In this document: in pieces, positions 9,775 through 26,261 of the stretch | Position numbering within the stretch: position 1 is the first letter of the stretch | Layout of the letters: every line of letters begins with the position of its first letter | Assembly: GCF_014041915.1 (NCBI RefSeq) | Contig: NZ_CP059472.1 | Location: 930,001 to 994,000, forward strand | DNA: 64,000 nt | Reading direction: 5' to 3' | Source of the DNA: Marnyiella aurantia | GTDB lineage: Bacteria; Bacteroidota; Bacteroidia; Flavobacteriales; Weeksellaceae | The notes under the pieces: generated by a model | Databases searched by the model: none | What the model was told of the DNA's origin: nothing | What the model saw: the letters and a program-made list of their open reading frames with translations, nothing else | Made by a program: the position numbers and the translations under genes

Positions 9775-10081
9775 CAGTATAATTTTTCAACAGCATTCGC
9801 AAACCGGCACAACTTAATTTCTGACATTGCCCATGGACCGGGTTCCGTTCCGGGGAATACGGCCTCGAATATTTTGCGTAGATAAACCTTGCCTTAAGCA
9901 AGGTGGGCTCATTCCTATTAAAAACGGAAGCAAAAAAAGCAACACACAGGAATCCGGTTCGCAATTCCTCCGTTCCCTCTGCGCCTCCTCCCTTCCTCCG
10001 TGGTAAAATTAAACCACTTTTTACTTTTTACTTTTGCCCTGGCTCTTCTCCCCTCAAAACCCTTTGTGCCTTTTGAAAACC

Positions 10082-10267
10082 TTCGTGCTCTTTGTGGTTA
10101 AAAATCTCTGCAACCGGGTAATTATAATATCATCCCGTCGGGGTTCTTAATCATCGGATTTTCCTTAATTTATAAAATAACACCCCTTCGGGGTTATCTA
10201 ACCACGGAGCACACAGTGGTTTTACAGAGCACACAGCGCTAATTCAAATCTATAATCTGAAATCTTG
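10082..10267. repeat. 186-bp direct repeat, copy 1
   Basis: Runs from TTCGTGCTCTTTGTGG through CACCCCTTCGGGGTTA to CTATAATCTGAAATCTTG. By hand alignment it differs from copy 2 (10599-10784) at about nine positions, including four one-base length changes. Confidence 0.85.
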
Positions 10268-10598
10268 CTTCCTGGTTCTTGGTTCTTGGTTCTAAAATAA
10301 GTCTGGAATCTGATATCTGAAATCTAACGTCTAAAATACCATGTCTGATATCTAGCATCTTTGCTCTTTCATCTTTCCTCCTTTTTCCTTTTGCCCTGGC
10401 TCTTCTCCCCTCAAAACCCCTTTGTGTTCCTTAAAATAACCTTTGTAAACTCTGTGGTTAGATCTTGCTTCCTGGTTCTTAGTTCTAAAAAAGTCTGAAA
10501 TCTCCTGTCTGATATCTAGCATCTTTGCTCTTTCATCTTTTCTCCTTTTTCCTATAGCCTTGGCTCTTCTCCCCTCTTCTTCGTGCACCTTGTGAAAA

Positions 10599-10784
10599 TT
10601 CGTGCTATTTGTGGTTAAAAATCCCTGCAACCGGGCAATTATAATATCATCCCGTCGGGTTCTTAATCATCGGAGTTTCCTTAATTTATAAAAATAACAC
10701 CCCTTCGGGGTTATATAACCACGGAGCACACAGTGGTTTTACAGAGCACACAGCGCTAAATTCAAATCTATAATCTGAATCTTG
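10599..10784. repeat. 186-bp direct repeat, copy 2
   Basis: Same orientation as copy 1 and 517 bases away. A partial third copy of its last part (TTTACAGAGCACACAGCGC and onward) starts at 13416 in island B. Confidence 0.85.
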
Positions 10785-11028
10785 GTTCCTGGTTCTAAAA
10801 AAAAGTCTGATATCTGATATCTAACGTCTAAAATCTCATGTCTGATATCCACCATCTAATCCAACCACAAGGCACACAAAGATGACCCCACGTACACTAG
10901 GAAGAATCCATAATTCAAAATTCAACATCCAAAATTCAAAATCCTGCTTTTCGCCTCTAAATAAAAGTCTGAAATCTGATATCTGATGAATAGCTTCTTT
11001 GATCTTTCATCCAACCATATCTGAAATC

Positions 11029-11062
11029 AAAAAAGCAGGAACTCCTTCCGAAGTCCCTGCTT
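11029..11062 (-). terminator. Terminator of the disordered-protein/yciF operon
   Basis: On the minus strand an 11-bp stem (AAGCAGGGACT with AGTTCCTGCTT, one G-T pair) is followed by TTTTTTG, 21 bases below the stop codon. Confidence 0.8.
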
Positions 11063-11083
11063 AATCAATTATCTAAATTAAAT

Positions 11084-11812
11084 TCAATAACCCGCTGTCT
11101 GCCTGCTGCCTTTGTGGCGGGAGCCGCTTTCTTGCACCTCATTATCATCCTCTTTTGCGGCGAAATTGATAAAGCTTTCAGCTATGTCGGTAAGTGTATG
11201 GTCCGTCCTTTCCTCCTCTTCCAGTGTTCTATGTAAAAGGTTGGAAGCATCACTCAGCCCCAGCGTCTCGGCAAGTGCCGCCAGGCCACCATAACTGGCT
11301 ATTTCGTAATGTTCAACTTTCTGGGCAGCAATGATTAATGCCGCGTCACGTGTCATACTTCCCTCTTCGGTCTCTTCTGTTACGGTTTCACCCTCACGCA
11401 GAATGCCCAGTATGGCTTCACACTTCTTCGCTTCAGGATCTTCACCCATCAAGCGGAAAACCTTCTCCAGACGTGAAATATGTTTCATAGTCTGCAGTTC
11501 ATGATCTTCAAAGGCCTCCTTCAGCTCTTCGGTGGTAGCAGCTTCCTGCATTTTCTTCAGAGCCTCTTTGATTTCCTTTTCAGCAAAATAAATATCCTTC
11601 AGCCCATTGGTGAAGAACTTATAAAGAGGACCGTCTTTTTCTGTCTCTAAAGCTGATGCAGATGATGTACTGTTGCTGCCATCCTGTTTTTCCTCATGCT
11701 GCGTCTTATTGCTTTCTGAACTGGTAGTCTGCTCATCTTTATTAGCGGATTCCGCCGACGTTTCGGCAGGAGTAGTTCCCGATAGCCTGTCTTTTTGATT
11801 TGTATTGCTCAT
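11084..11812 (-). CDS. YciE/YciF ferroxidase-like family protein (DUF892)
   Basis: 242 residues. The first 65 are a low-complexity Ser/Thr/Glu/Lys tail without structure. From about residue 65 there is the DUF892 four-helix bundle: LYKFFTNGLKDIYFAEKEI, FEDHELQTMKHISRLEKVF, KVEHYEIASYGGLAALA and LEEEERTDHTLTDIAE. The E-x6-7-Y and ExxH pairs of ferritin-like di-metal sites are visible (EDHELQTMKH, KVEHYEIASY, EEERTDHTL). The family is stress-linked in enterobacteria. It lies 55 bases below the Gly/Asn-rich protein gene on the same strand with no terminator between them, so both are probably one stress-related transcript. Confidence 0.85.
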   Translation of the reverse strand: MSNTNQKDRLSGTTPAETSAESANKDEQTTSSESNKTQHEEKQDGSNSTSSASALETEKDGPLYKFFTNGLKDIYFAEKEIKEALKKMQEAATTEELKEAFEDHELQTMKHISRLEKVFRLMGEDPEAKKCEAILGILREGETVTEETEEGSMTRDAALIIAAQKVEHYEIASYGGLAALAETLGLSDASNLLHRTLEEEERTDHTLTDIAESFINFAAKEDDNEVQESGSRHKGSRQTAGY

Positions 11813-11867
11813 TGTAGTAATTTTAATGAAAAAAGGCGGGCTTGCTCACGCAGCCGGCCAGATATAG

Positions 11868-12947
11868 TTAATGACGGCTGCTGTTGTTATTTCCGTTCTC
11901 ATTGCTCCGGCTTCCGAATCCACCCCGGCGTCCTGACCTTTCCTGCGAGCCGCCGTATCCGCCCGTATTGCCTCGGTCCGACCAGTTCTCAGAAGATCCA
12001 CGCGATGAAGACTGGTCATGCTCCGAACCCCAGCCACCGCGGTTACCGGAATACTCATTGCTGGAGGCATTGCTGCCGCCGGACCCGCCCCGGCCGGACT
12101 GCCAGGACTGCGAACCTTGACCACCACGGTTGCCCTGCTGCCGTTCGTAGGAACCGTCACTGCCGGATCTGCCGCTGCTGTATCCTTCGCTTCCATACAT
12201 TTCATTGCCGCCACGTCCCCTGCGGTCTCCGTAGGAACTGCCGTACTGAGAGTCATGGTGCCTGTCGAAACTGTCGCTTCCGCGGCTTCCGCCGTGTGCA
12301 CCTCCGAAATGCGCATGACCGCCTTCCTGTGAGCCGCCCCTGCCATAATCCCAGTCGTCTTGTGACCCAGAGTTGCGGTAGTCCTGATTTCGGGAGTCGC
12401 CGTATCCGCCACCGGAACTTTGCCGCCCGCTGTCAAAATTTCCCTGCGAACCGTACCTGTTATTGTCGTCACTGCCGTGCGAACCGCCTCTGCCGGAACC
12501 CCACTGATCACGGCCGTAGTCATTTTGATTATTTCTGCCACGGTTACCTCCACTGTTGGAATAGCGGCTGTTTTCTGAGCCACCGCCGTAGTTTAAACCT
12601 TGGTTCCCCCATCTGGACTCATCATCCCAGTCGCTTTCCGACCGTCCGAATCCGCGGTTCATCCCGCTGGACTCACCCGACATCCCCCTGTTTCCTCTGT
12701 CGTAGGAATTGTCGTTATTGTCCCAGTCATTGGAATAGCGGTCATTGTGGCGCCCTTCCTGTGCACCGTGCCGGTTCTCCTGTCCAAAGCCACTGCCTTC
12801 ATAATAGCTCTCATTTCCAGAGTTTCGCTGCGAACCGTTCCCCCCAGCATGGGAGCTGCGACTATCATAATTCTCGTTCCTCTGATTTTCGTTTCCACCG
12901 CGTGAAGACCAGTTGTCTTCATTACCGTAATTTCTTCTGTTGTTCAT
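11868..12947 (-). CDS. Gly/Ser/Asn/Arg-rich intrinsically disordered protein
   Basis: 359 residues from MNNRRNYGNEDNW. The whole length is low complexity: Gly, Ser, Asn, Arg, Asp, Tyr and Gln dominate, with many RG, GGS, YGS and SRG pieces and almost no Leu, Ile, Val, Cys or Lys. There is no signal peptide, membrane segment or recognisable fold. It resembles RGG/prion-like disordered proteins that bind nucleic acid or form condensates, but that is inference. The local base composition is clearly richer in G+C than neighbouring genes, which also opens long false frames on both strands. The frame runs on to 13001; the Met at 12947 begins the low-complexity part and is chosen. It is followed by the yciF-like gene. 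Confidence 0.8.
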   Translation of the reverse strand: MNNRRNYGNEDNWSSRGGNENQRNENYDSRSSHAGGNGSQRNSGNESYYEGSGFGQENRHGAQEGRHNDRYSNDWDNNDNSYDRGNRGMSGESSGMNRGFGRSESDWDDESRWGNQGLNYGGGSENSRYSNSGGNRGRNNQNDYGRDQWGSGRGGSHGSDDNNRYGSQGNFDSGRQSSGGGYGDSRNQDYRNSGSQDDWDYGRGGSQEGGHAHFGGAHGGSRGSDSFDRHHDSQYGSSYGDRRGRGGNEMYGSEGYSSGRSGSDGSYERQQGNRGGQGSQSWQSGRGGSGGSNASSNEYSGNRGGWGSEHDQSSSRGSSENWSDRGNTGGYGGSQERSGRRGGFGSRSNENGNNNSSRH

Positions 12948-13415
12948 AATAATAATTTTTGATTGTTTTGGTTTTGCTAAATTAATATAGCATTTAAGCA
13001 ATCACAAATTATTTATGTTAAATATCAACGCTACATAATACGTAATAATTAAAATATGTTTAATACAAAAGCTAATTCTGTGTCGACAATGCAATTATGC
13101 AATATGCAGTTAATCCACCTTAAATTGAGGAATAATCCCATTATAATGCCAACCATAACAGTTCCGGTCGTATCCGAACTGTCATCTTCGCCTTTAAAAA
13201 ATTGAAAAAAGAACCTGTAGAGAAGTGCAGAATTTATTTTAACACAAGTTTTTCAACCTCCTAAACAGACAGTTTGGTGCTAAAAATTCTATAAAATTGC
13301 CTTTCGAATAATATAAATATTTAATTAATTATTTCTATATATTACTTTCCTATAACAAGGAAATGTTTTAACATATTTTAACAGTATAAGTTCTACAATT
13401 TCGGTTAAATCGGGA

Positions 13416-14338
13416 TTTACAGAGCACACAGCGCTAATTCAAATCTATAATCTGAAACCTTGCTCCTGGTTCTTGGTTCTTGATTCTAAAAAAGTCTGAA
13501 ATCTGATATCTGATATCTAACGTCTAAAATCTGATATCTAGCATCTTGGCTCTTTGCTCTTTCCTCCTTTTTCCTTTTGCCTTATCTCTTTCTCCGATTC
13601 CTCTGCGCCTCCTCCGTATCTCCGTGGTAAAATTAAACCCACTTTTTACTTTTTACTTTTTACTTTTGCCCTGGCTCTTCTCCCCTCGAAGCCCCTTTGT
13701 GTTCCTTAAAAAAAAATTGTGCTCTTTGTGGTTAAAAAAATCCGTGATTAAAAGCAACAAACAAGAATCTGCTTCGTAATTCCTCCGTTCCCTCTGCGCC
13801 TCCTCTGTGCCTCCGTGGTAAATTTAAACCCACTTTTTACTTTTTACTTTTGCCCTGGCTCTTACGTCCCGCAGGGGTCTCTTCGGACACCGTCGGAAGC
13901 ACTTTTTCCTTTTCCCTTTTGCCGTGGCTCTTCCTCCGTTCCCTCTGCGCCTCCTCTGTGCCTCCGTGGTAAATTTAAACCCACTTTTTACTTTTTACTT
14001 TTGCCTTGGCTCTTCTCCCCTCAAAACCCCTTTGTGTTCCTTAAAATAACCTTTGTGGTTAGATCTTGCTTCCTGGTTCTTGGTTCTAAAAAAGTCTGAT
14101 ATCTGATATCTGGAATCTAACGTCTAAAATCTCATGTCTGATATCTAGCATCTTTGCTCTTTCATCTTTCCTCCTTTTTCCTTTTGCCCTGGCTCTCCTC
14201 CTCGAAACCCTTTGTGCACCTTGTGAATACTTTGTGCTCTTTGTGGTTAAAACCCCTGTGCTCAAAAAGTTTTACAGGAAATTTACACCTCAACAGCTTT
14301 ACGACTTTACAACTTTACAACTCAACAGCTTTACGACT
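13416..14338. repeat. Repeat island B between the disordered-protein gene and recX
   Basis: About 920 bases without a gene, built from the same modules as island A: TTTACAGAGCACACAGCGC (13416), TCTGATATCTGATATC, CTTTTTACTTTTTAC at 13641, 13832 and 13983, CTCTGCGCCTCCTC at 13792 and 13942, and CTTTGTGGTTA. The right end is an array of CAACAGCTTTACGACTTTAC units (14290-14338) that runs into recX and supplies its last two codons and stop. The 400 bases before it (12948-13415) are AT-rich with no gene or module that I recognise. Confidence 0.85.
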
Positions 14339-14792
14339 CCCCAACCACCTCCAAAATCTCACCGTACTCAAACCCACGTCCCATGAGATATTTTACTGTT
14401 TTGGATTTGCGCTGGTATTCCTTGCCGGTTTGCTTTTCAAAATATGAATCATAGATTTTTCGCAGGGTCTTCTCATAATCCTCAGGATGAATCTCATCGA
14501 AGCAGCTGCGCACCAGTTTCTCGGGCACCCCTTTGAATTTGAGGTGGTTCAGAATCTTGTTCCTTCCCCAGGATTTTATATAAAACTTACCGCGGATGTA
14601 GCTTCGTGCAAAACGTTCTTCATTAAGATAATTCTCCTCCATAAGATAAAGCAGAATCTCTTCCTTAGCCTCCGGAATTAGAAGAAAGTCGCGCATCTTC
14701 TGCTCTACCTCCTGATGGCACCTGTCCTGATAAACGCAGTAGTTTACCATCTTCTGTTTAATCTCCGAAAATGTATAGGATTTATGTTGCAT
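14331..14792 (-). CDS. recX: Regulatory protein RecX
   Basis: 153 residues. The RecX helical repeats are visible: VYQDRCHQEVEQKMRDFL, LMEENYLNEERFARSYIRGKFYIKSWGRNKI, HLKFKGVPEKLVRSCFDEI and a third repeat near the end with VKYLMGRGFEYGEILEVV. RecX modulates RecA filaments. The frame continues 29 codons upstream into a GGTTAAG repeat array, so the Met at 14792 is chosen. The last codons and the TAA stop coincide with a TTACGACTC repeat unit of island B, so the original C-terminus may have been replaced by repeat sequence. recA is not in the window. Confidence 0.85.
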   Translation of the reverse strand: MQHKSYTFSEIKQKMVNYCVYQDRCHQEVEQKMRDFLLIPEAKEEILLYLMEENYLNEERFARSYIRGKFYIKSWGRNKILNHLKFKGVPEKLVRSCFDEIHPEDYEKTLRKIYDSYFEKQTGKEYQRKSKTVKYLMGRGFEYGEILEVVGES

Positions 14793-14794
14793 GC

Positions 14795-14823
14795 AGGTAA
14801 AGGTTAAGATTAAGGTTAAGTGG
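14795..14823. repeat. GGTTAAG array upstream of recX
   Basis: Units AGGTTAAG/ATTAAGGTTAAG, G-rich on the plus strand, directly in front of the recX start codon. They are roughly complementary to the AACCTTA-type array at 14925-14983. Confidence 0.75.
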
Positions 14824-14924
14824 GTTACGACTATTGAGGGTGGTGTGATATTGAAACAGAAACCGTTATCGCTGCCCAAGACAAGATGAAATTACAATGG
14901 GGAAATCTACATCCAAACTGCTCA

Positions 14925-14983
14925 AATTCAACCTTAGCCCTAACCTACGCCTCACCCTTACCCTCAGCCTTAACTTCAACCTA
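14925..14983. repeat. AACCTTA/AACCTCA array on the 3' side of the four-helix-bundle gene
   Basis: Degenerate 6-8 base units (CAACCTTAG, CCTAACC, ACCCTTACCCTCAGCC, TTAACTTCAACC), C-rich on the plus strand. It ends four bases before the stop codon of the frameshifted gene. Confidence 0.75.
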
Positions 14984-14986
14984 TTT

Positions 14987-15354
14987 TTACTTTACCCTCT
15001 TGTTATCCAGCGTTTTAATGATTTTATTGGGCTCAAAAATTACTGAATCCAGCATTGAAATTACGCTTTCCGTTTTTTGTACGTCGAAATAGTGTACCCG
15101 GCTCCCATACAGTAGATGGCTTTTGGTTTCATTGCTGAACCTCTGGCAATCTTATAAAACTGCGATTTCTCCTTATCACCGCCGCGACCAAATCCTTCTG
15201 AAATATTTGCAGAAATACTTTCAGCTGACCTGCGAATCTGGGAAGTCAGCGCATAATCTTCCCTTCGCGGTAACGACTCTGAAATATCGTAAACCTCAAT
15301 CGCGATTTCCATTGCATTCTTCCAGACGGGCATCTGTGTGAAATCAGTGAACAT
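14987..15354 (-). pseudogene. Four-helix-bundle protein (S23/Avd-like family), frameshifted
   Basis: The first 74 or so codons encode the four-helix-bundle family (TIGR02436-like): VWKNAMEIAIEVYDISESLP, YALTSQIRRSAESISANISEGFGR and SQFYKIARGSAM. The frame then breaks: as written it ends at 15061 with a foreign tail. Adding one G in the ATGAAACC stretch near 15130 restores ETKSHLLYGSRVHYFDV, QKTESVISML and a further helix up to a TAA at 14987. The full product would have about 122 residues, the normal family length. Members are best known from insertions in 23S rRNA genes and as the Avd subunit of diversity-generating retroelements. No reverse transcriptase or rRNA is nearby. A sequencing or assembly error is the alternative explanation. 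Confidence 0.75.
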
Positions 15355-15509
15355 AAGATGAGGTTAAGCTTAAGTATTAGGTTGAACTTCAGATTACAGC
15401 TCCGCTGAGTGCAGGGTTTGAGGTTAAAATGAAAACTAAGGATGAACTGTTGATCGCTCCGCTTAACCTTAACCTTAACCTCAACTCAGCCTCAACCTTA
15501 ACCTCAACA
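15355..15509. repeat. GGTTAAG then AACCTTA arrays between the four-helix-bundle gene and glyA
   Basis: First a G-rich half (GATGAGGTTAAGCTTAAG, TTAGGTTGAAC, TTTGAGGTTAAAATG), then a C-rich half from about 15461 (TTAACCTTAACCTTAACC, CAACCTTAACCTCAAC). The C-rich half touches the glyA stop codon. With the arrays on the other side of the pseudogene it forms a bracket of inverted arrays. Confidence 0.8.
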
Positions 15510-16778
15510 TTAGTACTGAAACAACGGTCTTGAATCCATCAGCTCATTAACTTCCTTACGGACTCTGGAAATCACCTCCTCATCCTTCAGGTTCATTACA
15601 ACATCATTGATAAGTTTGGCAATGGTTTCCATATCCTCTTCCTTCATTCCGCGGGTGGTGATAGCTGCAGTACCCAAACGGATTCCTGAAGTGGTAAACG
15701 CAGATTTATCATCAAAAGGAACCATATTTTTATTGCAGGTAATATCTGCCTTTACCAATGCTTTTTCGGTTTCCTTACCGTTAACATTCTTATTTCTAAG
15801 GTCTACAAGCATAAGATGGTTGTCCGTACCTCCGCTTACAATATCAAATCCGTTGGCAATCATAGCTTTTGCAAGAGCCTTTGCATTGGCAACTACCTGT
15901 TTTGTGTACACCTCGAATTTTGGATCAAGGGCTTCACCGAACGCAACAGCTTTGGCAGCGATAACATGCTCCAAAGGTCCACCCTGGGTTCCGGGGAATA
16001 CAGCACTGTCCAGAACGGCACTCATCATTTTAGTTTCCCCCTTAGGTGTTTTATGTCCGTAAGTATTTTCGTAATCTTTACCCATCATAATAAGTCCGCC
16101 ACGCGGCCCGCGCAGGGTTTTGTGGGTAGTCGTGGTCACTACGTGACAGTGTTCAAAAGGACTGTTCAGTAAACCTTTGGCAATTAGTCCTGCCGGGTGT
16201 GCAATATCTGCCCAAAGTGTGGCGCCAACCTCATCTGCAACTTCGCGGAATTTCTTATAATCAAGGTCGCGGGAGTAGGCTGAAAAACCTGCGATGATCA
16301 TCTTTGGCTTTACTTCCAGAGCTTTCTGACGCATGGCATCGTAATCAATAAGACCGTCCTCACGGTTCACTCCGTAGAAATTCGCGTTATACTGTATACC
16401 AGAAAAATTTACAAAACTTCCGTGGGTAAGGTGACCGCCCATTGACAGGTCCAGTCCCAGGATGGAATCACCCGGTTTAAGAACGGCCAGGTACACAGCG
16501 GCATTAGCCTGCGAACCGGAGTGTGGCTGCACGTTTACATAATCCACCCCAAAAAGTTCCTTCGCTCTCGAAATAGCCAGGTTCTCCACCTCATCTACAA
16601 CCTCACATCCCCCATAATATCTCTTTCCCGGGTAACCTTCCGCATATTTGTTGGTAAGCACACTTCCCATAGCCTTCATCACATTATCGGAAACAAAATT
16701 TTCCGAGGCGATAAGTTCTATTCCGTGGGTCTGTCTTTTTCTTTCCTGTTCAATGAGGTCAAAAATTGGGTCTTGCAT
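15510..16778 (-). CDS. glyA: Serine hydroxymethyltransferase
   Basis: 422 residues, the usual family length. Clear landmarks are [32 protein letters not shown], the PLP-binding lysine in [16 protein letters not shown] (about residue 224), and [15 protein letters not shown]. It interconverts serine and glycine and charges tetrahydrofolate with one-carbon units in the cytoplasm. It has its own promoter at 16848 and a leader of about 65 bases. The stop codon is followed at once by an AACCTTA-type repeat array, with no terminator visible. Confidence 0.98.
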
Positions 16779-16847
16779 TATAATAATTTTAAATTTTAAA
16801 CTGTGTCAATAAAAGATTTCAGGTTATGAAGATGTATTCCTAAAGGG

Positions 16848-16855
16848 CAAACATA
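16848..16855 (-). promoter_or_regulatory. Promoter -7 box TATGTTTG of glyA
   Basis: Exact TAnnTTTG on the minus strand, 70 bases before the glyA start codon. Confidence 0.6.
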
Positions 16856-16935
16856 CCGAACTTTAACTCAGCTATATAGCTTGATGATCTCCTCAATCTT
16901 TTTTCCAAATTTACGCAAAATTTCGCGATGGTGGA

Positions 16936-17101
16936 AATGAAGGGCGAGGAAAGGACAAAGAACAAGGGGAAAGAGCAAAGAAGAAAGACGAAAAGAATAC
17001 ACCTGACTTTTTATACCCTCTTTCCTCCTAACCTTAACCTCCTAACACCACCACTCCCAACCACTCAATCACTCAATCACTCAATCACCGAACTCCTGCC
17101 T
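16936..17101. repeat. Repeat tract between glyA and the 98-aa gene
   Basis: A purine-rich module (AGGACAAAGAACAAGGGG, AAAGAGCAAAGAAGAAAG), which is the reverse complement type of the CTTTGCTCTTTCATC module of islands A and B. It is followed by CCTAACCTTAACC and three exact copies of CACTCAAT at 17062-17085. Confidence 0.7.
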
Positions 17102-17147
17102 TCGCAGTCCAAAAAAATTGAATATCTTTACTAACTTAAAATTACAG

Positions 17148-17444
17148 ATGAAATTCAAAAAGAAATACAAAAAGGAGCTTATTAAATCTCTTAAAACACT
17201 GGCCTTTACGGAACATGAATTGCTTGAAACAATGACGAACCTGATGCTGCTGAAGGAGTTGAAGAAAAATGATATTACCTTCGAAAAAGGCGATACCTTC
17301 TCATTTGAGGACAGCATCTTTGATTACAGCGAGGACAAGAATGTCCGTAAACTTGCCAAACTCCGCCGCAAGATGATCAAGACGATGGGCAAATTAGTTG
17401 ACGGAACTGATTTCAAGGACAAAGAAATAGAGTTTCTGGCCTAA
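17148..17444 (+). CDS. Small basic protein of unknown function (98 aa)
   Basis: Begins MKFKKKYKKELIKSLKTL and is highly charged and mostly helical in appearance: FTEHELLETMTNLMLLKELKK, then an acidic stretch FEDSIFDYSEDKN and a basic helix VRKLAKLRRKMIKTMGKL. No signal peptide or membrane segment; I recognise no family. The frame is open from 17118, but a promoter-like TATCTTTA lies at about 17122-17129 inside the extension, so the later Met is chosen. A clear terminator follows at 17551, which supports a real single-gene transcript. Confidence 0.7.
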   Translation: MKFKKKYKKELIKSLKTLAFTEHELLETMTNLMLLKELKKNDITFEKGDTFSFEDSIFDYSEDKNVRKLAKLRRKMIKTMGKLVDGTDFKDKEIEFLA

Positions 17445-17550
17445 GAAATTACCGCAATTACAGTCACCATATAGGTTACCAAAGGGAGTGCTGGTGGCCT
17501 CTGCTCTAATGTAAAACAGGACCTGAAAAACCCACCGTACAAAACACAAA

Positions 17551-17577
17551 AACCGCAGAAATTCTCTGCGGTTTTTT
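17551..17577 (+). terminator. Terminator of the 98-aa gene
   Basis: 9-bp stem AACCGCAGA with TCTGCGGTT, 5-base loop, then TTTTTC on the plus strand. Confidence 0.85.
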
Positions 17578-17639
17578 CATTTACTTGTCCATTGATTTTT
17601 GCCCAGCTTAAAAAGCTTTTGGCTCTAGGTTACTGGTTT

Positions 17640-18191
17640 CTGGTTTTACCTAACCACAGAGAACACAGAGCTTATACGGAGATCACAGAAAAAAATTCAT
17701 AATCCAAAATTCAAATCTTGACTCTTGGCTCCTGGCTCCTGGCTCCTGGCTCTTAACCACAAGGAACACAAAGCTTTCAAAGTGCACATAGAGCTTAATT
17801 CAAAATCCATAATTCATAATCCAAAATTTAAATCTTGGCTCCTGTCTCCTGTCTCTTGGCTCCTGTCTCCTGTCTCCTGTCTCTTAACCACAAGGAACGC
17901 AAAGATCTGCCACAAAGGACACAAAGAAAGCCGCAAAAAATCTCCGCGGCCTTATCTTTTTTCTTTCCTCTTTTCTCTTTCCTCAAGATTAGAAATCTTG
18001 GTTCTTGGCTCTTGATTCTTTTCTCTAATCCAACCACAGAGAACACAGAGCTTTTACAGAGCACACAGAGTTTAATTCATAATCCAAAATCTGATATCTG
18101 AAATCTAACATCTTTTCTCTTTCCTCTAATTTCAAATCTGACATCTGAAATCTTGTCTCTTATCTCAAGTCTCTCAATCTCCTGTCTCTGT
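17640..18191. repeat. Repeat island C below nrdA
   Basis: About 550 bases without a gene. Modules: AACCACAGAGAACACAGAGC (17650 and 18032), AACCACAAGGAACACAAAG (17756), AACCACAAGGAACGCAAAG (17887), GGCTCCTGGCTCCTGGCTCC (17728), CTCCTGTCTCCTGTCTCC (17862), TTCATAATCCAAAATTC and TCTGATATCTGAAATC. In the nrdA sense direction it starts at the base after the stop codon and reads purine-rich, then GATGTCAGATTT, then GGATTATGAATTA, then CTCTGTGTTCTCTGTGGTT. Confidence 0.85.
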
Positions 18192-19850
18192 TTACGCCTC
18201 ACACGATGAGCACGTCACAAAATTCACCATCATCTCCTTCGAAACCGAAGAACTTCTCTGGTAGTACAGGGTCTTAACACCTTTCTTCCAGGCTTCAATA
18301 TAGAGATAGTTCACATCCTTCACCGGCATTGTAGACGGGATCTGAAGGTTCAGCGACTGTGCCTGATCGATATACTGCTGACGCTGCGCCGCCTGCGAGA
18401 TAATTTCCATCGGAGAAATCTCTCGGAAGGTTTTGAACACCGCTTTTTCCTCGTCGGTAAGCTCAGCCAGATGTTGCACAGAACCATGGTTCAGCATAAT
18501 TGTTCTCCATGTTTCCTCATTGTCAATTCCTTTCTCCTGAAGCAGCTTCGCCAGGTACTTGTTCTTACGCATGAAATTACCTTTGGCAAGTCCGGCCTTA
18601 TAGTAATTGGACGCAAACGGCTCGATTCCCGGAGAAGTCTGACCCAGAATTGCGGAACTGGAAGTCGTAGGCGCGATAGCCATTGTAGTGGTATTACGCA
18701 TGCCGTAGCCTTTCAGGATTTCTGGCTCACCGTAAATATTGGCCAACTCCTGCGATGCCTGCAGGGACTGTTCCTTAATCTGTTTGAAAGCCCGTGCATT
18801 GAACTGAGTAGCTTCGAAACTTTCGAACGGAATCATATTTTTCTGAAGGTAAGAGTGATAACCCAGAACACCTAATCCCAGAGCTCTATGTCTCAACGCG
18901 AAGTTTCTGGCACCGGTAAGATAATAGTTGCCTTCCGTTTTCTCAATGAATTCGGAAAGTACAGCATCCAGGAAGTAAATGGCCAGTTTTACAGCGTTGG
19001 TATCCTTCCATTCATCATACAGCTCCAGGTTCATTGAAGAAAGGCAGCAGATGAAAGATTCCTCCTCACTGGAAGGCAGCATAATCTCGGAGCAGAGGTT
19101 ACTGGCGTTAATCGTCATGCCCAAATCCTTGTAGACCTGCGGTTTGTTCCGGTTCACATTATCGGAGAACAGAATGTAGGGCAGACCTTTTTGCTGGCGG
19201 CTTTCCAGCACACGTGCCCAGATCTTGCGCTTGTCCATATCGCCGTCTATCATGTCCTGCATCCAGTAATCCGGTACACAGATACCCGTAAAGAGGTTCT
19301 GGATCGGGCTTCCAATGTCTTTGATGGACAGAAATTCCTCAATATCGCCATGGTCTACATCAAGATAGGCCGCAAAAGCACCTCTCCGAACGCCGCCTTG
19401 GGAAACCACATCCATCGCAGTATCGTAAAGCTTCATAAAGGAAACCGCTCCGGACGATTTTCCGTTGTCAGTAACAGCAGTACCGCGGTTACGCAGCTCC
19501 CCGAAATAACCGGAGGTACCTCCGCCAATCTTGGTCTGCATAATCACCTCGCCCAGTTTATGGGTGATGCCCTCAATATTGTCGGGCACATGCACGTTGA
19601 AACAGGAAATCGGCAGTCCGCGCTGCGTACCCATATTGGCCCACACCGGTGATGAGAAACTGATCCACCCTTTGGTGATCATTTCCTCAAAAGCGGGTTG
19701 AAGTTCGGGCTTATAGAGCCTTTTTGCCGCTGCAGTGGTTATACGTTCTATAGCGCCTTTCACGGTTTCACCTTTCAAAAGGTATCCGCGGTTCAGCATT
19801 TGTTCGGACTCTTCATTGAGCCACCAGATATCGTTTTTTTGTTCTTCCAT
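18192..19850 (-). CDS. nrdA: Ribonucleoside-diphosphate reductase, alpha subunit (class I)
   Basis: 552 residues. Active-site pieces are SCFNVHVPD (redox Cys), NASNLCSEI (the N-x-C-x-E radical site), SFICCLSSMNLE, the radical-transfer pair in TLYYQRSSS and the C-terminal CSSC shuttle. It begins IWWLNEESEQML and has no N-terminal ATP-cone. It reduces NDPs to dNDPs with NrdB. Two further codons (ATGACG) lie upstream in frame at 19856-19851, but they belong to the end of an inverted-repeat element, so the Met at 19850 is taken as the native start. nrdB lies upstream on the same strand, separated by a 112-aa gene and two repeat islands. Confidence 0.95.
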   Translation of the reverse strand: MEEQKNDIWWLNEESEQMLNRGYLLKGETVKGAIERITTAAAKRLYKPELQPAFEEMITKGWISFSSPVWANMGTQRGLPISCFNVHVPDNIEGITHKLGEVIMQTKIGGGTSGYFGELRNRGTAVTDNGKSSGAVSFMKLYDTAMDVVSQGGVRRGAFAAYLDVDHGDIEEFLSIKDIGSPIQNLFTGICVPDYWMQDMIDGDMDKRKIWARVLESRQQKGLPYILFSDNVNRNKPQVYKDLGMTINASNLCSEIMLPSSEEESFICCLSSMNLELYDEWKDTNAVKLAIYFLDAVLSEFIEKTEGNYYLTGARNFALRHRALGLGVLGYHSYLQKNMIPFESFEATQFNARAFKQIKEQSLQASQELANIYGEPEILKGYGMRNTTTMAIAPTTSSSAILGQTSPGIEPFASNYYKAGLAKGNFMRKNKYLAKLLQEKGIDNEETWRTIMLNHGSVQHLAELTDEEKAVFKTFREISPMEIISQAAQRQQYIDQAQSLNLQIPSTMPVKDVNYLYIEAWKKGVKTLYYQRSSSVSKEMMVNFVTCSSCEA

Positions 19851-19851
19851 C

Positions 19852-20206
19852 GTCATTGCGAGTGCAGCGAAGCAATCCCGCGTTGTTTATTTATTACTAA
19901 TTTCTATCTTTTTGAAGCAGTTTGCTTACTGCCGTCTTTCATTTGTCAGCCCGCTCTCCGCTGTATCTTTTTTAGTGACTTCGGCTTCGCTCAGTCACCA
20001 AAAAAGGATGCCGCTGCGATCGGGGCTATTACTTTGCCTGGTGATCTGTTCACTGTTTTATTTAACCACAGAGCGCACAGAGCTAAATCCAAAATCCTGG
20101 TTCCTGCCTCTGGGTTCCTGGCTCTGTCCTCCTAACCTTCTAACCTCTTAACAGATCCTACTTTGGGATTGCCACGTCGCTCCCTCCGTCCGCTCCTCGC
20201 AATGAC
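19852..20206. repeat. Inverted-repeat (MITE-like) element ending at the nrdA start
   Basis: The ends are GTCATTGCGAG (19852-19862) and its exact complement CTCGCAATGAC (20196-20206). A second inner pair is AGCAATCCC (19871-19879) with GGGATTGCC (20165-20173). Between the ends lie a hairpin element (19949-20028) and an AACCACAGAGCGCACAGAGC module (20044), so it is nested with other repeats. No open frame inside looks like a transposase. From memory, GTCATTGCGAG-type repeats are widespread in bacteria. Confidence 0.75.
19949..20028. repeat. Imperfect hairpin element, about 80 bp
   Basis: Outer arms GCCCGCTCTCCGCTGTATC and GGATGCCGCTGCGATCGGGGC are roughly complementary. Inside are TTTTTTAGTGACT and AGTCACCAAAAAA around a TTCGGCTTCGC loop. 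From memory, repeats of this design are common between genes of Flavobacteriia. Confidence 0.65.
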
Positions 20207-20281
20207 AGCCATGTAAGTTTAGGAAATGTCGCTCGCCTCACTTTTTACTTTTGCCTTGGTTCTTGGCTCTTGGCTCTAACC
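20207..20281. repeat. Repeat tract touching the 112-aa gene stop codon
   Basis: Contains CACTTTTTACTTTTGCC and TTGGTTCTTGGCTCTTGGC. The last unit ends directly at the stop codon of the gene at 20282-20620. Confidence 0.7.
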
Positions 20282-20620
20282 CTATCCCTCCGGATCCTCA
20301 AAATTCCCAAAAACATTGTCAAAACTTCCGGCACTTCCCTGAAACTTCAGAACCTTCATTTCCGGGGTGTCTGCCAAATTAGCGTCGCGCTGACGCTGAA
20401 ATTCCAGGAATAAAGGCATAGCCAGGAGTTGCTTCTGGATATCCTCATTCAGATAGGCCGAATGGTGGCAAAAGGTCAGTCCGTCCTCTTCCACAAAGAT
20501 CTGATAGCGGAATTTCGTGTGGTCCAATTCCCGGAAAGACTCCAAAAAGAGTTCAATATTTTCTCGGTTCGTGTCCGAAAACTCCGGTTTCACCGTATAT
20601 TTTACCTGTATATTAATCAT
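20282..20620 (-). CDS. Hypothetical protein between nrdB and nrdA (112 aa)
   Basis: Begins MINIQVKYTVKPEFSDTNRENIELFLESF and continues HTKFRYQIFVEEDGLTFCHHSAYLNEDIQ. The pattern (strand, helix, strands, second half alike) fits a dimeric ferredoxin-like fold of the kind seen in small monooxygenase-type or YCII-like proteins. This is a guess from the pattern and no catalytic residue is evident. No signal peptide. Its place between the two ribonucleotide reductase genes on the same strand suggests co-transcription at some time, although repeat islands now separate it from both. Confidence 0.75.
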   Translation of the reverse strand: MINIQVKYTVKPEFSDTNRENIELFLESFRELDHTKFRYQIFVEEDGLTFCHHSAYLNEDIQKQLLAMPLFLEFQRQRDANLADTPEMKVLKFQGSAGSFDNVFGNFEDPEG

Positions 20621-20649
20621 TGTTTTTCTTTTAATGCTGTAAGAATACG

Positions 20650-20677
20650 CTTTAGGCTTTAGGCTTTAGGCTTTAGG
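20650..20677. repeat. Tandem repeat, four exact copies of CTTTAGG
   Basis: A 7-base unit repeated four times without error, 30 bases upstream of the 112-aa gene start. Confidence 0.9.
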
Positions 20678-20680
20678 CAA

Positions 20681-21042
20681 TATACTTACTATTAATAAAA
20701 ACCTGAGATGTCAGAAAATCAGCTGTTCGAAGCCATGGCATCCGAAGTCTTTGTTCTTTAATCTTTATTATTTCCTCAGAAATCTAACTAAAGAGAACAC
20801 AGCGTCAACATTTAACTCTTCCTTCCGGCTCCGAGTTCATTTCCATGTTACTTTGTTAAACCTTCAAGGTTTAACATTTTCAAAGAGAACACTAAAAAAC
20901 CGTAGGTCTTCACTCCCCTTATCTTTATTCTTTTCTCTTCCTTCTTTCATCAAAATCAGAAATCCTGGCTACGCCTTACCTTTTTACATTTGTCTTTTTA
21001 CTTTTGCCTTGACTCTTCGAAACCTTGAAGGTTTACCCATCC
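20681..21042. repeat. Repeat island D between nrdB and the 112-aa gene
   Basis: About 360 bases without a gene: AAAGAGAACACAGCG, TTTTTACATTTGTC, CTTTTTACTTTTGCC and two odd palindromes, GTTAAACCTT-C-AAGGTTTAAC (20855-20875) and AAACCTT-G-AAGGTTT (21020-21034). The second lies eight bases below the nrdB stop codon. Confidence 0.75.
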
Positions 21043-22017
21043 CTAAAACAAATCGTTCTCCGTAATACTCTTGTCGTGTTTTGTATAATCCACCGGTCTC
21101 TTGGCAAAGAAATCGTCCATGGAGTTCGCGAAGACTTCCTCCTCAAACCAAACCATGGGCTTAAACTGTTCAGGAGTGATGTTATAACGGGTTTTCATGC
21201 TGATTTTCTTCAGGCTGTCATCCACACGGAACTTCATAAAGTTCAGCAGGTCTTCCTTACTGAAATTATCTAGATCGCCCATCTCAAAGATCCAGTCCAG
21301 GATCTCTTCTTCTACCTGGATGGAATGATCGACAAGCGTGTAAATATCGTCGATATCAGAATCTGTAAGCAGCTCCGGCTGCTCTTCACGGATCTTGTTG
21401 ATGAGGTAAATGCCTGCGTTTGCATGGATCTGCTCATCCACAGAAGTCCACGCTATTATATTGGACACATTTTTCATGTATCCTTTAAATCTTGTAAAAG
21501 ACAGTATAATGGCAAACTGCGAGAACAGCGAAACGTTTTCAATCAGTATGCTGAACAGCAGCAGCGATGACACATACTCTTTAGGTGTGGTGGAATTGGC
21601 ATGCTTTAGCACATTGCTCAGGAAATCAATCCTTTTCTTAATGGCCGGAATCTCGATCACCTGCGTGAACGCATCATTATAACCCAACACTTCCAGCAGA
21701 CGCGAGTACGCTTCAGAGTGGCGGAACTCACACTCGGCAAAGGTGGAACCAAGGCCGTTAAGCTCAGGCTTGGGCATATGGTTATACAGATTTCCCCAGA
21801 AAGTCTTTACCGAAACCTCAATCTGCGCGATGGCCAGCAATGCATTTTTTACAGCGTTTTTTTCATGTGGCTCCAGCTGCGACTGGAAATCCTGCACATC
21901 GGCAGTAAAGTCCACTTCGGAATGCACCCAGAAAGATTTGTTGATCGCATCTACAAACTGCAGTACTTCCGGATACTCAAATGGCTTATAACTTACTCTC
22001 TTTTCAAAAATCCCCAT
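21043..22017 (-). CDS. nrdB: Ribonucleoside-diphosphate reductase, beta subunit (class I)
   Basis: 324 residues. The di-iron and radical residues are in place: FAECEFRHSEAYSRLLE gives the ExxH ligands and the radical Tyr four residues after the His. ILIENVSLF gives the next Glu, and DEQIHANAG the last ExxH. It generates the tyrosyl radical used by NrdA. It has no N-terminal ATP-cone, a domain some Bacteroidota NrdB proteins carry. It is transcribed from a promoter at 22131 and heads the nrdB - unknown - nrdA block. Confidence 0.96.
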   Translation of the reverse strand: MGIFEKRVSYKPFEYPEVLQFVDAINKSFWVHSEVDFTADVQDFQSQLEPHEKNAVKNALLAIAQIEVSVKTFWGNLYNHMPKPELNGLGSTFAECEFRHSEAYSRLLEVLGYNDAFTQVIEIPAIKKRIDFLSNVLKHANSTTPKEYVSSLLLFSILIENVSLFSQFAIILSFTRFKGYMKNVSNIIAWTSVDEQIHANAGIYLINKIREEQPELLTDSDIDDIYTLVDHSIQVEEEILDWIFEMGDLDNFSKEDLLNFMKFRVDDSLKKISMKTRYNITPEQFKPMVWFEEEVFANSMDDFFAKRPVDYTKHDKSITENDLF

Positions 22018-22130
22018 AAAGTGACTCAGTTTATATCGTGTTAAAAATAGTAATTATAATAAATACCCGTTTATCCATGTAACTGACTGTCAGGTCATTA
22101 AGGTACAGTCAACAGGATTTGCGGCGAAAA

Positions 22131-22138
22131 CAAAAATA
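22131..22138 (-). promoter_or_regulatory. Promoter -7 box TATTTTTG of nrdB
   Basis: Exact TAnnTTTG on the minus strand, 114 bases before the nrdB start. The long leader contains no NrdR-box pair that I could recognise. The rest of the divergent gap up to 22400 holds no repeat module and no clear plus-strand promoter. Confidence 0.6.
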
Positions 22139-22400
22139 GATAATACTTCCCTACCGTGAAAGGCATAGCTGACGTATAAACGTAAAAGTTTTCCACAAAA
22201 GCACAGAAGTGTCTGCTGATGCATGTTACAGCCTTTTTATAGCTCCGCTTCGCCTAAATCAGATGTCATAAATCAAACAGACTCTTAATTCTTCAAGTGG
22301 AATAAGCGATCTACATTAAACAGCTTCCAGAATTCGTTTAAACGGGCGCTTTGTAACAAATAAGATCCTGCAGATACTTATATAGCAAGCAAACCGTTAT

Positions 22401-23093
22401 ATGTTAAGTATTCAGAATCTCCATAAATCGTATGATACGGGCAAGAGTAAACTTCACGTCCTGAAGGGCATCAACCTTGAAATCGGTGCCGGCGAATTCG
22501 TCTCCATTATGGGCAGCTCGGGTTCGGGAAAATCTACGCTGCTTAACATCATTGGTATTCTGGATGAAAAAGATTCCGGAACTTACACCCTGGACGGAAT
22601 TCCAATTGAGGACCTTTCCGAAGTCAAAGCAGCGGAATACCGAAGCCGTTTTCTGGGTTTTGTATTTCAGTCATTTAACCTCATCGCCTACAAAACTGCC
22701 CTGGAAAACGTGGCCTTGCCGCTGTACTATCAGAATGTGAACCGAAAGGAACGGAACCTGAAAGCGATGGAATATCTGGAAAAAGTAGGTCTGGCACAAT
22801 GGGCCAACCACCTGCCTAACGAACTCTCCGGCGGACAGAAGCAGCGTGTGGCTATAGCCCGCGCACTGATTACAGATCCCAAGATCATCCTGGCCGATGA
22901 ACCTACGGGAGCACTGGACAGTAACACTACTTACGATATTATGAAACTGCTGCAGGACATCAACCGCGAGGGGAAAACGATTATCGTGGTTACCCACGAG
23001 CCGGACGTTGCTGCCGAAACGAAAAGAAATGTAATCCTGAAAGACGGCATTATTGAAAGCGACGAGTACATCACCCAGCGGGTCCTCGCATAA
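22401..23093 (+). CDS. ABC transporter ATP-binding protein (MacB/LolD family)
   Basis: 230 residues with Walker [10 protein letters not shown] (about residues 37-45), Q-loop VFQSFNL, signature LSGGQKQR, Walker [13 protein letters not shown] and the H-loop VVTHEP. This is the standard ATPase of the MacB/LolD type 7 ABC family, which powers mechanotransmission across the envelope. It is the first gene of a plus-strand operon: ATPase, two permeases, periplasmic adaptor. Substrates of such systems include peptides, lipoproteins and antibiotics; nothing here tells which. Confidence 0.93.
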
Positions 23094-23148
23094 ATCTGAT
23101 AATTTGCCAGTTTCCAATATAGCAGCTTACCAATCAATTGAACGCCTA

Positions 23149-23222
23149 AACAACTTCACGATTTTACAAACTTACGACTCAACAACTTAACAATTTTACT
23201 ACTTAACCACTCAACAACTAAT
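23149..23222. repeat. CAACAACTTAACAATTTTAC array between ATPase and permease genes
   Basis: Degenerate 9-10 base units (CTTACGACT, CAACAACTTAAC, TACTACTTAACCACT) in the 143-base gap. They are related to the CAACAGCTTTACGAC array at the end of recX (14290-14338). Confidence 0.75.
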
Positions 23223-23236
23223 CCCCTCTAATAAAC

Positions 23237-24469
23237 ATGTTTGATCTGGACCGCTGGCAGGAAATATTCGCCTCCATACGAAGCAATGTACTGAGAACAG
23301 TGCTCTCCGGTTTTACGGTGGCGTTGGGCCTGTATATATTTATCGTACTCTTTGGCATCGGTTCGGGACTGAAAAACGCCTTTACCGAAGGTTTTGCCCG
23401 CGACGCCCAAAACCTTATCGCTATATTTTCCGGGAAAACAACAGTTGCTTACGGTGGACTGCAGTCGGACAGGCAGGTTGTTTTCAAGAACGATGATTAT
23501 GATGAAATCATTGCCATAGATCCCGGCAAGGTGGAATACTCAGCCCCAAAATACAGCACGGGCATGATGGTAAAGTATGGCCGTGAAAGCGGCAACTATC
23601 AGATCAGCGGTACCACCGGCGACGAGAAATTTATTGAAAACAGACAATTGGTGGACGGCAGGTATATAAGCCCGGGAGACCTGCAGCGCAGGCAGAATGT
23701 GGCCGTTATAGGCCGGATGGTACAGCGCGACCTTATAAAAGACGGCAGTCCTATTGGCAGGGACCTGGAAATTAACGGCACCATGTTCAAGGTGATAGGC
23801 GTTTTTTCTGACGAAGGCGGCGGCGATTTTGAGGAAAGGATGATTACCATCCCGATCAGTACGCTGCAGCAAATGAAAAAAGGTTCTGATACCGTAAACT
23901 CCATTCAGCTTACCTACAACCAGAACCTGACACCCGATCAGGCTATAGAGTATGGTGAGGAAATTGAAAAACAGGTCAAGGCCAGACATAAAGTCTCACC
24001 CGATGATGAAAATGCCATCAGGGTGCGTAACAATGCAGAAAACACCAAAAACAGTTTTCAGTTCCTGTTTATCCTGACGCTTGTAGTGGGATTTATCGGC
24101 ATGGGCACCCTGCTGGCCGGCATCATCGGCATCAGCAACATCATGGTTTACATCGTAAAGGAAAGGACCCAGGAAATTGGTGTACGGAAAGCCATTGGTG
24201 CCAAACCCAACAGCATTATTGCGCTGATCATTCAGGAAAGTATTGTCATTACAGTGATTTCGGGTTTCATAGGTGTGGGTTTGGGCGTTCTTACGCTCGA
24301 ACTTATCGGCGACGGCCTGGAAGCTTATTTCATCAAAGACCCGAGTGTAGGTTGGGGCCTCATTATCGTCGCTTTTGTATGCCTGATCCTAGCCGGATTA
24401 ATTGCCGGCTTTGTACCTTCGTACCGCGCGAGCAAAATAAAACCTATTGAAGCCCTGAGAGCAGAATAA
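23237..24469 (+). CDS. ABC transporter permease, MacB family (first)
   Basis: 410 residues. TM1 is at about 15-43 (LSGFTVALGLYIFIVLFGIG), followed by a MacB periplasmic core domain (GTTGDEKFIENRQLVDGRYIS, VAVIGRMVQRDLI, VIGVFSDEGG). The FtsX-like C-terminal helices follow with VKERTQEIGVRKAIGAKP, and the protein ends PSYRASKIKPIEALRAE. These are the hallmark motifs of type 7 ABC permeases. It pairs with the second permease 70 bases downstream, so the transporter is probably a heterodimer. Confidence 0.92.
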   Translation: MFDLDRWQEIFASIRSNVLRTVLSGFTVALGLYIFIVLFGIGSGLKNAFTEGFARDAQNLIAIFSGKTTVAYGGLQSDRQVVFKNDDYDEIIAIDPGKVEYSAPKYSTGMMVKYGRESGNYQISGTTGDEKFIENRQLVDGRYISPGDLQRRQNVAVIGRMVQRDLIKDGSPIGRDLEINGTMFKVIGVFSDEGGGDFEERMITIPISTLQQMKKGSDTVNSIQLTYNQNLTPDQAIEYGEEIEKQVKARHKVSPDDENAIRVRNNAENTKNSFQFLFILTLVVGFIGMGTLLAGIIGISNIMVYIVKERTQEIGVRKAIGAKPNSIIALIIQESIVITVISGFIGVGLGVLTLELIGDGLEAYFIKDPSVGWGLIIVAFVCLILAGLIAGFVPSYRASKIKPIEALRAE

Positions 24470-24539
24470 TATTACAGAAACAGTACTTAGAAAATTATAC
24501 TTTGTACAATAACAAAAAAAAGTCGAAACACCGTATCGG

Positions 24540-25808: not shown

Positions 25809-25849
25809 CGGGTAGCTGAAAGTGGATAAGGAGATCAGACAGAGTTAAT

Positions 25850-26235: not shown

Positions 26236-26261
26236 AATTGTAACATTAAATAAAACGATAT

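Follow-up and report, generated by a model that had tools for sequence, protein, structure and literature searches.

Islands of degenerate seven- and nine-base repeats in Marnyiella aurantia mostly keep their intergenic places between two species while their content turns over fast

What are the kilobase-scale mosaics of short modules that fill two neighbouring intergenic gaps of the bacterium Marnyiella aurantia, and how could they have arisen? The window analysed here is a stretch of 64,000 nt (assembly GCF_014041915.1, contig NZ_CP059472.1, positions 930,001 to 994,000) of the 2.61 Mb genome of this species (G000). Three congeners are denoted G001–G003, and 40 relatives were compared. An earlier interpretation of this DNA from its letters alone (the sequence-only reading) had described the two gaps as almost wholly built from recurring short modules in similar order. 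This was borne out, i.e. positions 10295–10408 and 14088–14201 are 94% identical over 114 nt, and positions 10381–10446 and 13991–14056 are 97% identical. Both islands that it had named are real and well above what chance would give, but the list was incomplete, as two more are present in the window (islands 3 and 4 in Table 1) and a search pattern for the repeats has 183 hits genome-wide. We think it probable, on balance, that the islands are long-lived clusters of degenerate 7-nt (TCTNNNN) and 9-nt (CACRRAG plus two bases) tandem repeats in tolerant gaps, grown by slippage, unequal exchange, and copying between gaps.

Reading along the sequence, the modules are mostly one running seven-base phase (...TCTGGAA TCTGATA TCTGAAA TCTAACG TCTAAAA...), and further units are in phase, i.e. 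TCTTGGT TCTTGGT, CTTTTTA CTTTTTA, and AATTCAA AATTCAA. The usual unit in G000 is TCTNNNN, in which TCT is kept and the four spacer bases vary. The leftover modules (CTTTGTGGTTA, ACCACGGAGCACACAG, and CTCCGTGGT) look like nine-base units on CACRRAG, on either strand. The periodicity was scored as lag-7 self-identity against a first-order Markov background, and the four islands of the window have values of 0.40–0.53 versus 0.27–0.29 (z 6.6–14.3). All four islands also have a weaker peak at lag 21, three of them have one at lag 14, and two have one at lag 9. The pattern TCT-N4-TCT-N4-TCT-N4-TCT has 34 matches on the plus strand of the window, 33 of them within islands; four TCT anchors at spacings of 2, 3, or 5–8 have no match on that strand.

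Array units were called with Tandem Repeats Finder (TRF), which reported period-7 arrays throughout the islands (ACTTTTT, TCTTGGT, TCTGATA, AATTCAA, CTCCTGT, and others) and some of periods 6, 8, 9, and 11. Together with the lag-7 values of the first two islands (Table 1), this contradicts the view of the sequence-only reading that the gaps are not tandem repeats with a fixed period. The units switch type in phase, and many different units occur within one genome. The islands are not made of near-perfect copies of one unit, the lag-7 identity of whole islands being only 0.40–0.53; single short arrays inside islands can be perfect (ACTTTTT). The similarity of units falls to about background within 5–6 units, as is expected from local homogenisation. 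The repeat families are irregularly spaced and degenerate, not near-identical repeats of 20–50 nt with regular unique spacers, so that the exclusion of CRISPR in the earlier reading holds. The heptad TCTGAAATCTGATATCTGA has 0 matches in viral contigs, and its reverse also has 0.

To guard against circularity, the anchor was analysed by counting, for each of the 64 triplets, runs of four copies at a 7-nt spacing whose spacers differ in at least two of four positions. TCT accounted for 52 of the 87 cases over all triplets in regions of G000 and for 19 of 37 in tiles of G001; the G000 regions, partly via TCT matches, and a few of the G001 tiles had been picked by repeat hits. Other spacings yielded 6–38 cases (both strands), versus 174 and 74 at the 7-nt spacing. 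Genome-wide, the four-anchor TCT pattern has 183 matches in G000 and 274 in G001, and it is present in 35 of the 40 relatives, with few or none in small genomes. The counts for TCT, TTC, and CTT, the latter being the backwards control, are 183/21/72 in G000, 274/26/59 in G001, 250/25/457 in G025, and 91/316/162 in G014, showing that the favoured anchor is lineage-specific. A universal TCT anchor was therefore rejected.

In the sampled regions, the arrays are mainly intergenic, with hits in 28 gaps versus one source (L140, two hits) inside open reading frame (ORF) calls. Both flanking genes are co-directional with TCT in 12 of the 28 gaps and both run against it in 11, while five gaps have other arrangements; the left neighbour of gap 2 was called plus in this count, and calling it minus gives 12 and 12. 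A Rho-related or antisense role of the pyrimidine strand was rejected, because there is no strand bias relative to genes.

For the question of copying between gaps, the two gaps that contain islands 1 and 2 (gaps 1 and 2) were compared within and between genomes; about 2.4 kb and two genes separate the two islands. In G000, the two gaps share matches of 246 and 243 bits, and all matches together cover 739 of 1,115 nt. In G001, 82 of 97 positions of a segment are alike in gaps 1 and 2 (104 bits), and this segment has no match (E 1e-6) in either gap of G000. In contrast, the orthologous comparisons of gaps 1 and 2 between G000 and G001 gave only 58 and 32 bits, and only 242 of 1,115 nt and 27 of 1,329 nt, respectively, are alignable between the orthologs. 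When the whole genome (2.6 Mb) was searched with island 1 of G000, the best matches were to island 2 (246, 243, 153, and 130 bits) and island 3 (70 bits), and all others had at most 58 bits. For gap 1 of G001, the gap itself was followed by gap 2 of G001 (104 bits), a place about 1 Mb away (85 bits), another place (65 bits), and then the best match in G000, i.e. island 1 (58 bits).

The likeness of gaps 1 and 2 within each genome thus exceeds that between orthologs, and different segments are shared in the two species, showing that segments were copied between gaps in both lineages since their split. This supports the copying of modules that the sequence-only reading had supposed. The copying is mainly between neighbouring gaps in these cases, but not only. 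Larger tandem duplications also exist, i.e. one with a unit of about 520 bp in island 1 and one with four copies at 141–142 bp near G000:837,000. The latter (L139, G000:831000-844000) is a tandem of a TCTTTAT/TCTTTTC array block, and a Y1_Tnp gene is located about 5 kb away at 842385. Dispersal via an identical array at G000:1176432 and 1433206 was considered and rejected, because both copies are part of a 5,641-bp block that is 99.6% identical and that we take, judging from its sequence, to be two rRNA operons. Heptamer arrays (CTTCTAA, GGTGACT) are found beside these apparent rRNA operons (L136:5500-6500 and L137:5900-6350); the last array is inside the 99.6% identical 5.6 kb, and the arrays beyond it diverge.

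Orthologous gaps of G000 and G001 were then compared. An automated comparison of 84 gaps of G000 found 11 with an orthologous gap in the compared stretches of G001, i.e. five with arrays in both, one in G001 only, and five in neither. Upon inspection by eye, the pair L141:3342 was coding-like DNA that had been read as an array and was scored “neither”, the 29 nt of G000 in gap L141:8806 were not an array and this gap was scored “G001 only”, and the pair L134:10745 was excluded (flank identity 66–67%). The gap between SHMT and a small ORF was scored “both” despite its short array in G000, the recX–SHMT gap, which has short 6-nt arrays, was scored “neither” for 7-nt arrays, and the gaps of islands 1 and 2 were added by hand. 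Of the resulting 12 gaps, six have arrays in both genomes, one in G001 only, and five in neither; the Fisher value of 0.015 for these counts is indicative only, as the tiles were picked partly for carrying repeats. The five array-free gaps align over 100, 100, 97, 90, and 72% of their lengths, while the array-bearing gaps mostly align over 2–59%, with one (small ORF–ribonucleotide reductase) reaching 84%.

The islands thus mostly keep the same gaps between G000 and G001, while their content turns over fast. The sequence-only reading had named ordinary point divergence at the same places in close relatives as an outcome that would speak against it; the places are mostly the same, but the divergence is not ordinary. 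It had also proposed to look for gain or loss of whole islands, and there is one such case: G001 has an island of about 1.2 kb in a gap whose counterpart in G000 has none, the flanking proteins being 95–98% identical. The order of recX, SHMT, and the ribonucleotide reductase gene is kept in G000–G003, with the small ORF seen by eye between the last two, and the DUF892 gene adjoins this group in G001, too. The gap between SHMT and the small ORF holds a short array in G000 and arrays over about 600 bp in G001; in G003 its arrays consist of other units, and in G002 it is free of arrays.

Period-7 arrays with decaying unit similarity are the expected product of ordinary slippage combined with tandem duplication, and homogenisation of repeats by gene conversion is well accepted. 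The earlier opinion that there is no accepted mechanism is not supported. Units would multiply by slipped-strand copying, segments of 100–500 bp by unequal exchange, and segments could be carried from gap to gap by recombination, gene conversion, or template switching at forks, with the repeats serving as homology. No dedicated enzyme would be needed for growth and homogenisation of the islands. Of the two processes suggested earlier, template switching or repair synthesis, template switching is a possible route.

Several observations do not fit such a mechanism well. Sharing is not only local, as is exemplified by the 85-bit match about 1 Mb away in G001, and gaps 4 and 6 match each other in inverted orientation in G000 as well as in G001 (80 and 79 bits); some of the sharing between gaps may predate the species split. 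TCT stays while the spacers change, although equal drift of all seven columns would be expected under slippage and point mutation, and the favoured anchor differs between genomes, G014 with its excess of TTC being the example. The kept TCT suggests a constraint or an anchoring step that is outside what slippage and conversion explain. Lastly, the exact sharing of a nine-base repeat across phyla does not follow from slippage.

These 9-nt arrays are built on CACRRAG and often face each other in the form AACCACRRAG...CTYYGTGGTT. The exact 19-mer AACCACAGAGAACACAGAG, which occurs twice in island 3, was found in at least 114 stretches of genome contigs, while about two matches are expected in the whole collection from length alone and equal base frequencies. 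Titles were available for 80 of them and include, as deposited, Acidobacteria, Planctomycetes, Gemmatimonadetes, Chloroflexi, Nitrospirae, WOR-3, Omnitrophota, Cyanobacteria, Spirochaetia, Opitutales, Sporomusa, Chitiniphilus, Bacteroidota, and two archaeal records. Viral contigs contain 41 matches, versus 0 for the reversed control. The general form ACCACRRAGNNCACRRAG has 370 matches in 72 of 296 genomes of the phylum, and the reversed control has 10 in 10. Of the 114 cellular loci listed, 15 are inside ORF calls, 69 are between ORFs, and 30 are at contig edges.

The anatomy of the element was characterised with fetched loci. Facing pairs outnumber back-to-back pairs by 110 to 8 (155 loci, both strands counted), and the left boundary AACCAC is sharp by eye. 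Of 68 loci with flanks of 250 nt at either end, 22 have the motif CTCTGTGGT within 250 nt after the 19-mer and one has it before; no copy of CTTTGTGGT, CTCCGTGGT, or CTTCGTGGT was seen among them. Neighbouring units have the same RR variant in 89 of 150 listed matches, versus 51.7 ± 5.2 in shuffles. The variant is also the same in 47 of 55 facing pairs, loci that had been fetched with an AGAG 19-mer. Conversion of the arms into a perfect stem was unsupported, as in genus g91 the outer arms match in only 2 of 18, the inner arms in 7, and the crosswise comparisons in 12 and 11. At L187, the facing arms extend by eye as an inverted repeat for about 16 nt beyond ACCAC/GTGGT. A composite of two facing arms, used to look for polymorphic insertions, matched nothing in E. 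coli genomes; matches over half its length were obtained in 4 of 72,556 plasmid records (Gemmatirosa, Bacteroides finegoldii twice, and Nostoc) and in 1 of 50,697 phage records.

In viral contigs, the 19-mer is located at the start of an ORF in 3 of 41 loci (100-aa ORF call), and other copies are near start codons by eye. The three ORFs, on the IMG/VR contigs L115, L122, and L123, are alike and are read in frame as MRLTTENTEDTEDTEDTEK.... In Bacteroides fragilis, a published PCR primer for the region upstream of BF2782, which has an invertible promoter, ends in AACTCTGTGTTCTCTGTGGTG, an arm of the 9-mer element (PMC3090145). An exact-string search of open-access papers for forms of the 9-mer retrieved no description among the matches listed, a search that misses strings split in print.

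We take AACCACRRAG...CTYYGTGGTT to be a separate, much wider inverted-repeat family and one raw material of the islands. Its sharing across domains is not explained by slippage and conversion and needs a mobile element or a strong shared constraint. Outside this group, 7-mer arrays were not convincingly associated with the 19-mer (cellular loci, 7 of 80 near versus 4 of 79 far; viral loci, 2 of 41 versus 0 of 39). As a speculation to which we attach a low probability, AACCACRRAGNNCACRRAG...CTYYGTGNNCTYYGTGGTT could be a single family of small mobile inverted repeats of bacteria and archaea, moved in trans by an unrecognised enzyme, which would found islands in some lineages, where TCT-anchored (elsewhere TTC- or CTT-anchored) copying would swap 4-nt cores between heptads and leave their three-base anchor intact.

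How do other explanations compare with the growth of clusters by slippage, exchange, and copying? The 9-mer inverted repeat might be a small element resembling miniature inverted-repeat transposable elements (MITEs) or repetitive extragenic palindromes (REPs), which would be moved in trans by a putative transposase and seed islands, with 7-mer arrays growing around the insertions. The sharp boundary and facing arms, the exact 19-mer in many phyla, and the excess of the general form over its control are in line with this idea, and Y1_Tnp is present in 13 of 14 genomes with island-1 matches versus 8 of 26 without (40 genomes). However, genome size confounds the latter count, and Y1_Tnp is missing from G025 despite its 250 heptad hits. 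Several species of a second genus of the phylum have copies of the 9-mer at matching places, and these copies, coding and non-coding ones taken together, diverge in the ordinary way. Alignment of four such cases gave no clean empty site, and inspection by eye of the sequences around 55 facing pairs revealed no constant target duplication; strict 7-nt runs also show no clear enrichment near the 19-mer elsewhere. At one of the four aligned places, an indel of about 150 bp directly adjoins the GTGGTT end, and at another, L354 (G200) compared with L324 and L325, about 1.2 kb with a coding-like stretch takes the place of the left arm, while the right arm stays. We rate this explanation as improbable. 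As a separate observation, L019 (G013) has at 1345–1480 a Y1_Tnp gene with GCTCCGTAGGAGCGACCTGTT repeats upstream and an adjoining TTAGAAG-type heptamer array.

Alternatively, by analogy with a proposal for the paired repeat sites of Geobacter metallireducens, the arrays might be selected binding sites of IHF/HU-type or other nucleoid proteins, which would recognise the anchors and leave the spacers free. The anchor bases (TCT or CACRRAG) are kept while the spacers vary, the 9-mer sites are inversely paired at variable distance, like those in the class 2 legend of Geobacter metallireducens, and the islands mostly persist in the same gaps. Against selection for binding, the favoured anchor differs between related genomes, G002 has no arrays in the SHMT–ribonucleotide reductase gap, where three congeners have them, unit similarity decays with distance, and the strand of the arrays has no bias relative to the flanking genes. 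This role appears unlikely for the islands. Much less probable still, to the point of being nearly negligible, is a reverse transcriptase or telomerase-like enzyme that would write the repeats from an RNA template, although a fixed short unit with a three-base anchor would resemble repeat addition. RVT_1 (PF00078) is absent from G000, from the three congeners G001–G003, and from the heptad-rich G025. It is present in 6 of 40 relatives (G018, G021, G022, G033, G035, and G036), which have 2, 38, 18, 1, 0, and 1 heptad hits, respectively, versus 183, 274, and 250 in G000, G001, and G025, which do not have it, and many different units occur in one genome.

Among known systems, the closest description found is that of the putative global regulator binding sites, classes 1–3, in the Geobacter metallireducens genome (PMC2700814). 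According to its legends, class 3 comprises five tandem heptanucleotides MTYCTGA, and class 2 has TCTCCGTS[Y] three times in tandem, its sites being paired on opposite strands with a variable interval; the sites, in dozens of copies, are presumed to be recognised by IHF/HU proteins and are called unique to that genome (PMC2700814). Compared by legend only, class 3 is close to the TCTGATA/TCTGAAA arrays, and class 2 pairs are like CTYYGTGNN...GTGGTT. Unlike the discrete Geobacter sites, as described there, we found kilobase islands, segmental copying, and a 9-mer common to many phyla.

The cyanobacterial short tandemly repeated repetitive (STRR) sequences are a class of heptameric tandem repeats. 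Heptameric long simple sequence repeats (LSSRs; Mrazek et al. 2007) are, as summarised in PMC4679880 and PMC4692102, over-represented in intergenic regions of some taxa with a patchy distribution, and slippage has been proposed for them. LSSRs and STRRs resemble the islands in their 7-nt tandem units, intergenic location, and patchiness between taxa, but the arrays described in these summaries have one unit type, whereas the degenerate units of the islands change type in phase and alternate with stretches of 9-mers. The TAACTGA direct repeats of Beggiatoaceae, Cyanobacteria, and Bacteroidetes, most of which are found immediately upstream of start codons in the genome studied best (PMC4679880), are likewise, by that account, intergenic heptamer arrays with a patchy distribution across phyla; they are one fixed heptamer, and TAACTGA is not among the TRF units of the window. 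Elements of the REP/BIME type (bacterial interspersed mosaic elements) with RAYT transposases are, in the descriptions of PMC2817692 and PMC12306157, also extragenic inverted repeats in mosaics, but their module anatomy is different, and G025 is rich in heptads without Y1_Tnp; neither CACAGAG nor GTGGTT is present in the main text of the REP paper PMC12306157. Of the features of MITEs, facing arms were seen, while a constant duplication by eye and a clean empty site in the four aligned cases were not found. No known transposon family, whose identification would also have counted against the sequence-only reading, came to light, and searches of phage and plasmid collections with island 1 gave no match. 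The islands belong with the known heptamer arrays, as an extreme, fast-evolving variant.

Table 1. Repeat islands, their parts, and flanking genes (positions within the window)
Feature	Position	Strand	Evidence
Island 1, arrays of degenerate 7-nt and 9-nt units, plus-strand TCT anchors	9961–11019		lag-7 identity 0.40 vs 0.273 background, z 8.9; TRF period 7
Left copy, tandem segmental duplication (unit ~520 bp), island 1	10041–10360	+	84.9% identical over 324 columns to 10562–10857
Right copy of the ~520-bp-unit duplication, island 1	10562–10857	+	alignment with 10041–10360
TCTTGGT heptamer array	10263–10293	+	TRF period 7, 4.4 copies
TCTGATA heptamer array	10806–10849	+	TRF period 7, 6.3 copies
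AATTCAA heptamer array	10912–10942	+	TRF period 7, 4.4 copies
9-mer unit pair ACCACAAAGAGCACGAAG, the CTTTGTGGTTA module of the sequence-only reading on the other strand	10081–10098 (G000:C1:940081-940098)	-	pattern search
Island 2, array classes as in island 1, TCT anchors on plus strand	13416–14258		lag-7 identity 0.435 vs 0.285, z 9.2
Island 2 segment common to island 1 (10381–10620)	13991–14252	+	78.6% over 271 columns, 246 bits
Island 2 segment common to island 1 (10218–10408)	13413–13595	+	89.1% over 192 columns, 243 bits
9-mer unit pair ACCACAAAGAGCACAAAG	14230–14247 (G000:C1:944230-944247)	-	pattern search
Period-8 array TTTACAAC, end of gap 2, reaching into recX 3′ end	14282–14338	+	TRF
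Island 3, vocabulary as islands 1 and 2, outside the span of the sequence-only reading	17600–18190		lag-7 identity 0.526 vs 0.267, z 14.3; lag-9 z 3.8
19-mer AACCACAGAGAACACAGAG, exact copy in island 3	17652–17670	+	sequence; last 18 bases = G000:C1:947653-947670:+
19-mer AACCACAGAGAACACAGAG, second exact copy in island 3	18032–18050	+	sequence; last 18 bases = G000:C1:948033-948050:+
Island 4, opposite orientation (AGA anchors on plus strand)	25820–26230		lag-7 z 6.6, lag-9 z 3.5
DUF892 gene between islands 1 and 2, outside repeat	11084–11812	-	PF05974, 8.8e-52
recX gene flanking island 2, outside repeat	14331–14879	-	PF02631, 2.2e-11

Gap 1 is flanked on the minus strand by a 146-aa ORF without Pfam match and the DUF892 gene, and gap 2 by a low-complexity ORF without Pfam match and recX. 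The low-complexity ORF (11868–13001) is open on both strands (377 aa on the minus strand; 384 aa on the plus strand at 11795–12949), has no Pfam match on the minus strand, and is 58.6% identical in G001. A search of positions 9800–26400 against Rfam (gathering score) yielded no match inside the islands; the sole match in this range, outside the islands, is a Flavo-1 RNA (RF01705) at 19943–20031 on the minus strand.

Intergenic “junk” becomes a measurable system, in which the birth, copying, and loss of short repeats can be followed with complete genomes of closely related strains. The content of the arrays turns over faster than the surrounding array-free gaps and is homogenised between gaps. 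The cross-domain 9-mer element and the fixed anchor are both beyond an explanation by heptamer arrays. An exact 19-base motif with facing arms that is found across phyla and in archaea asks for a mobile element or a strong shared constraint.

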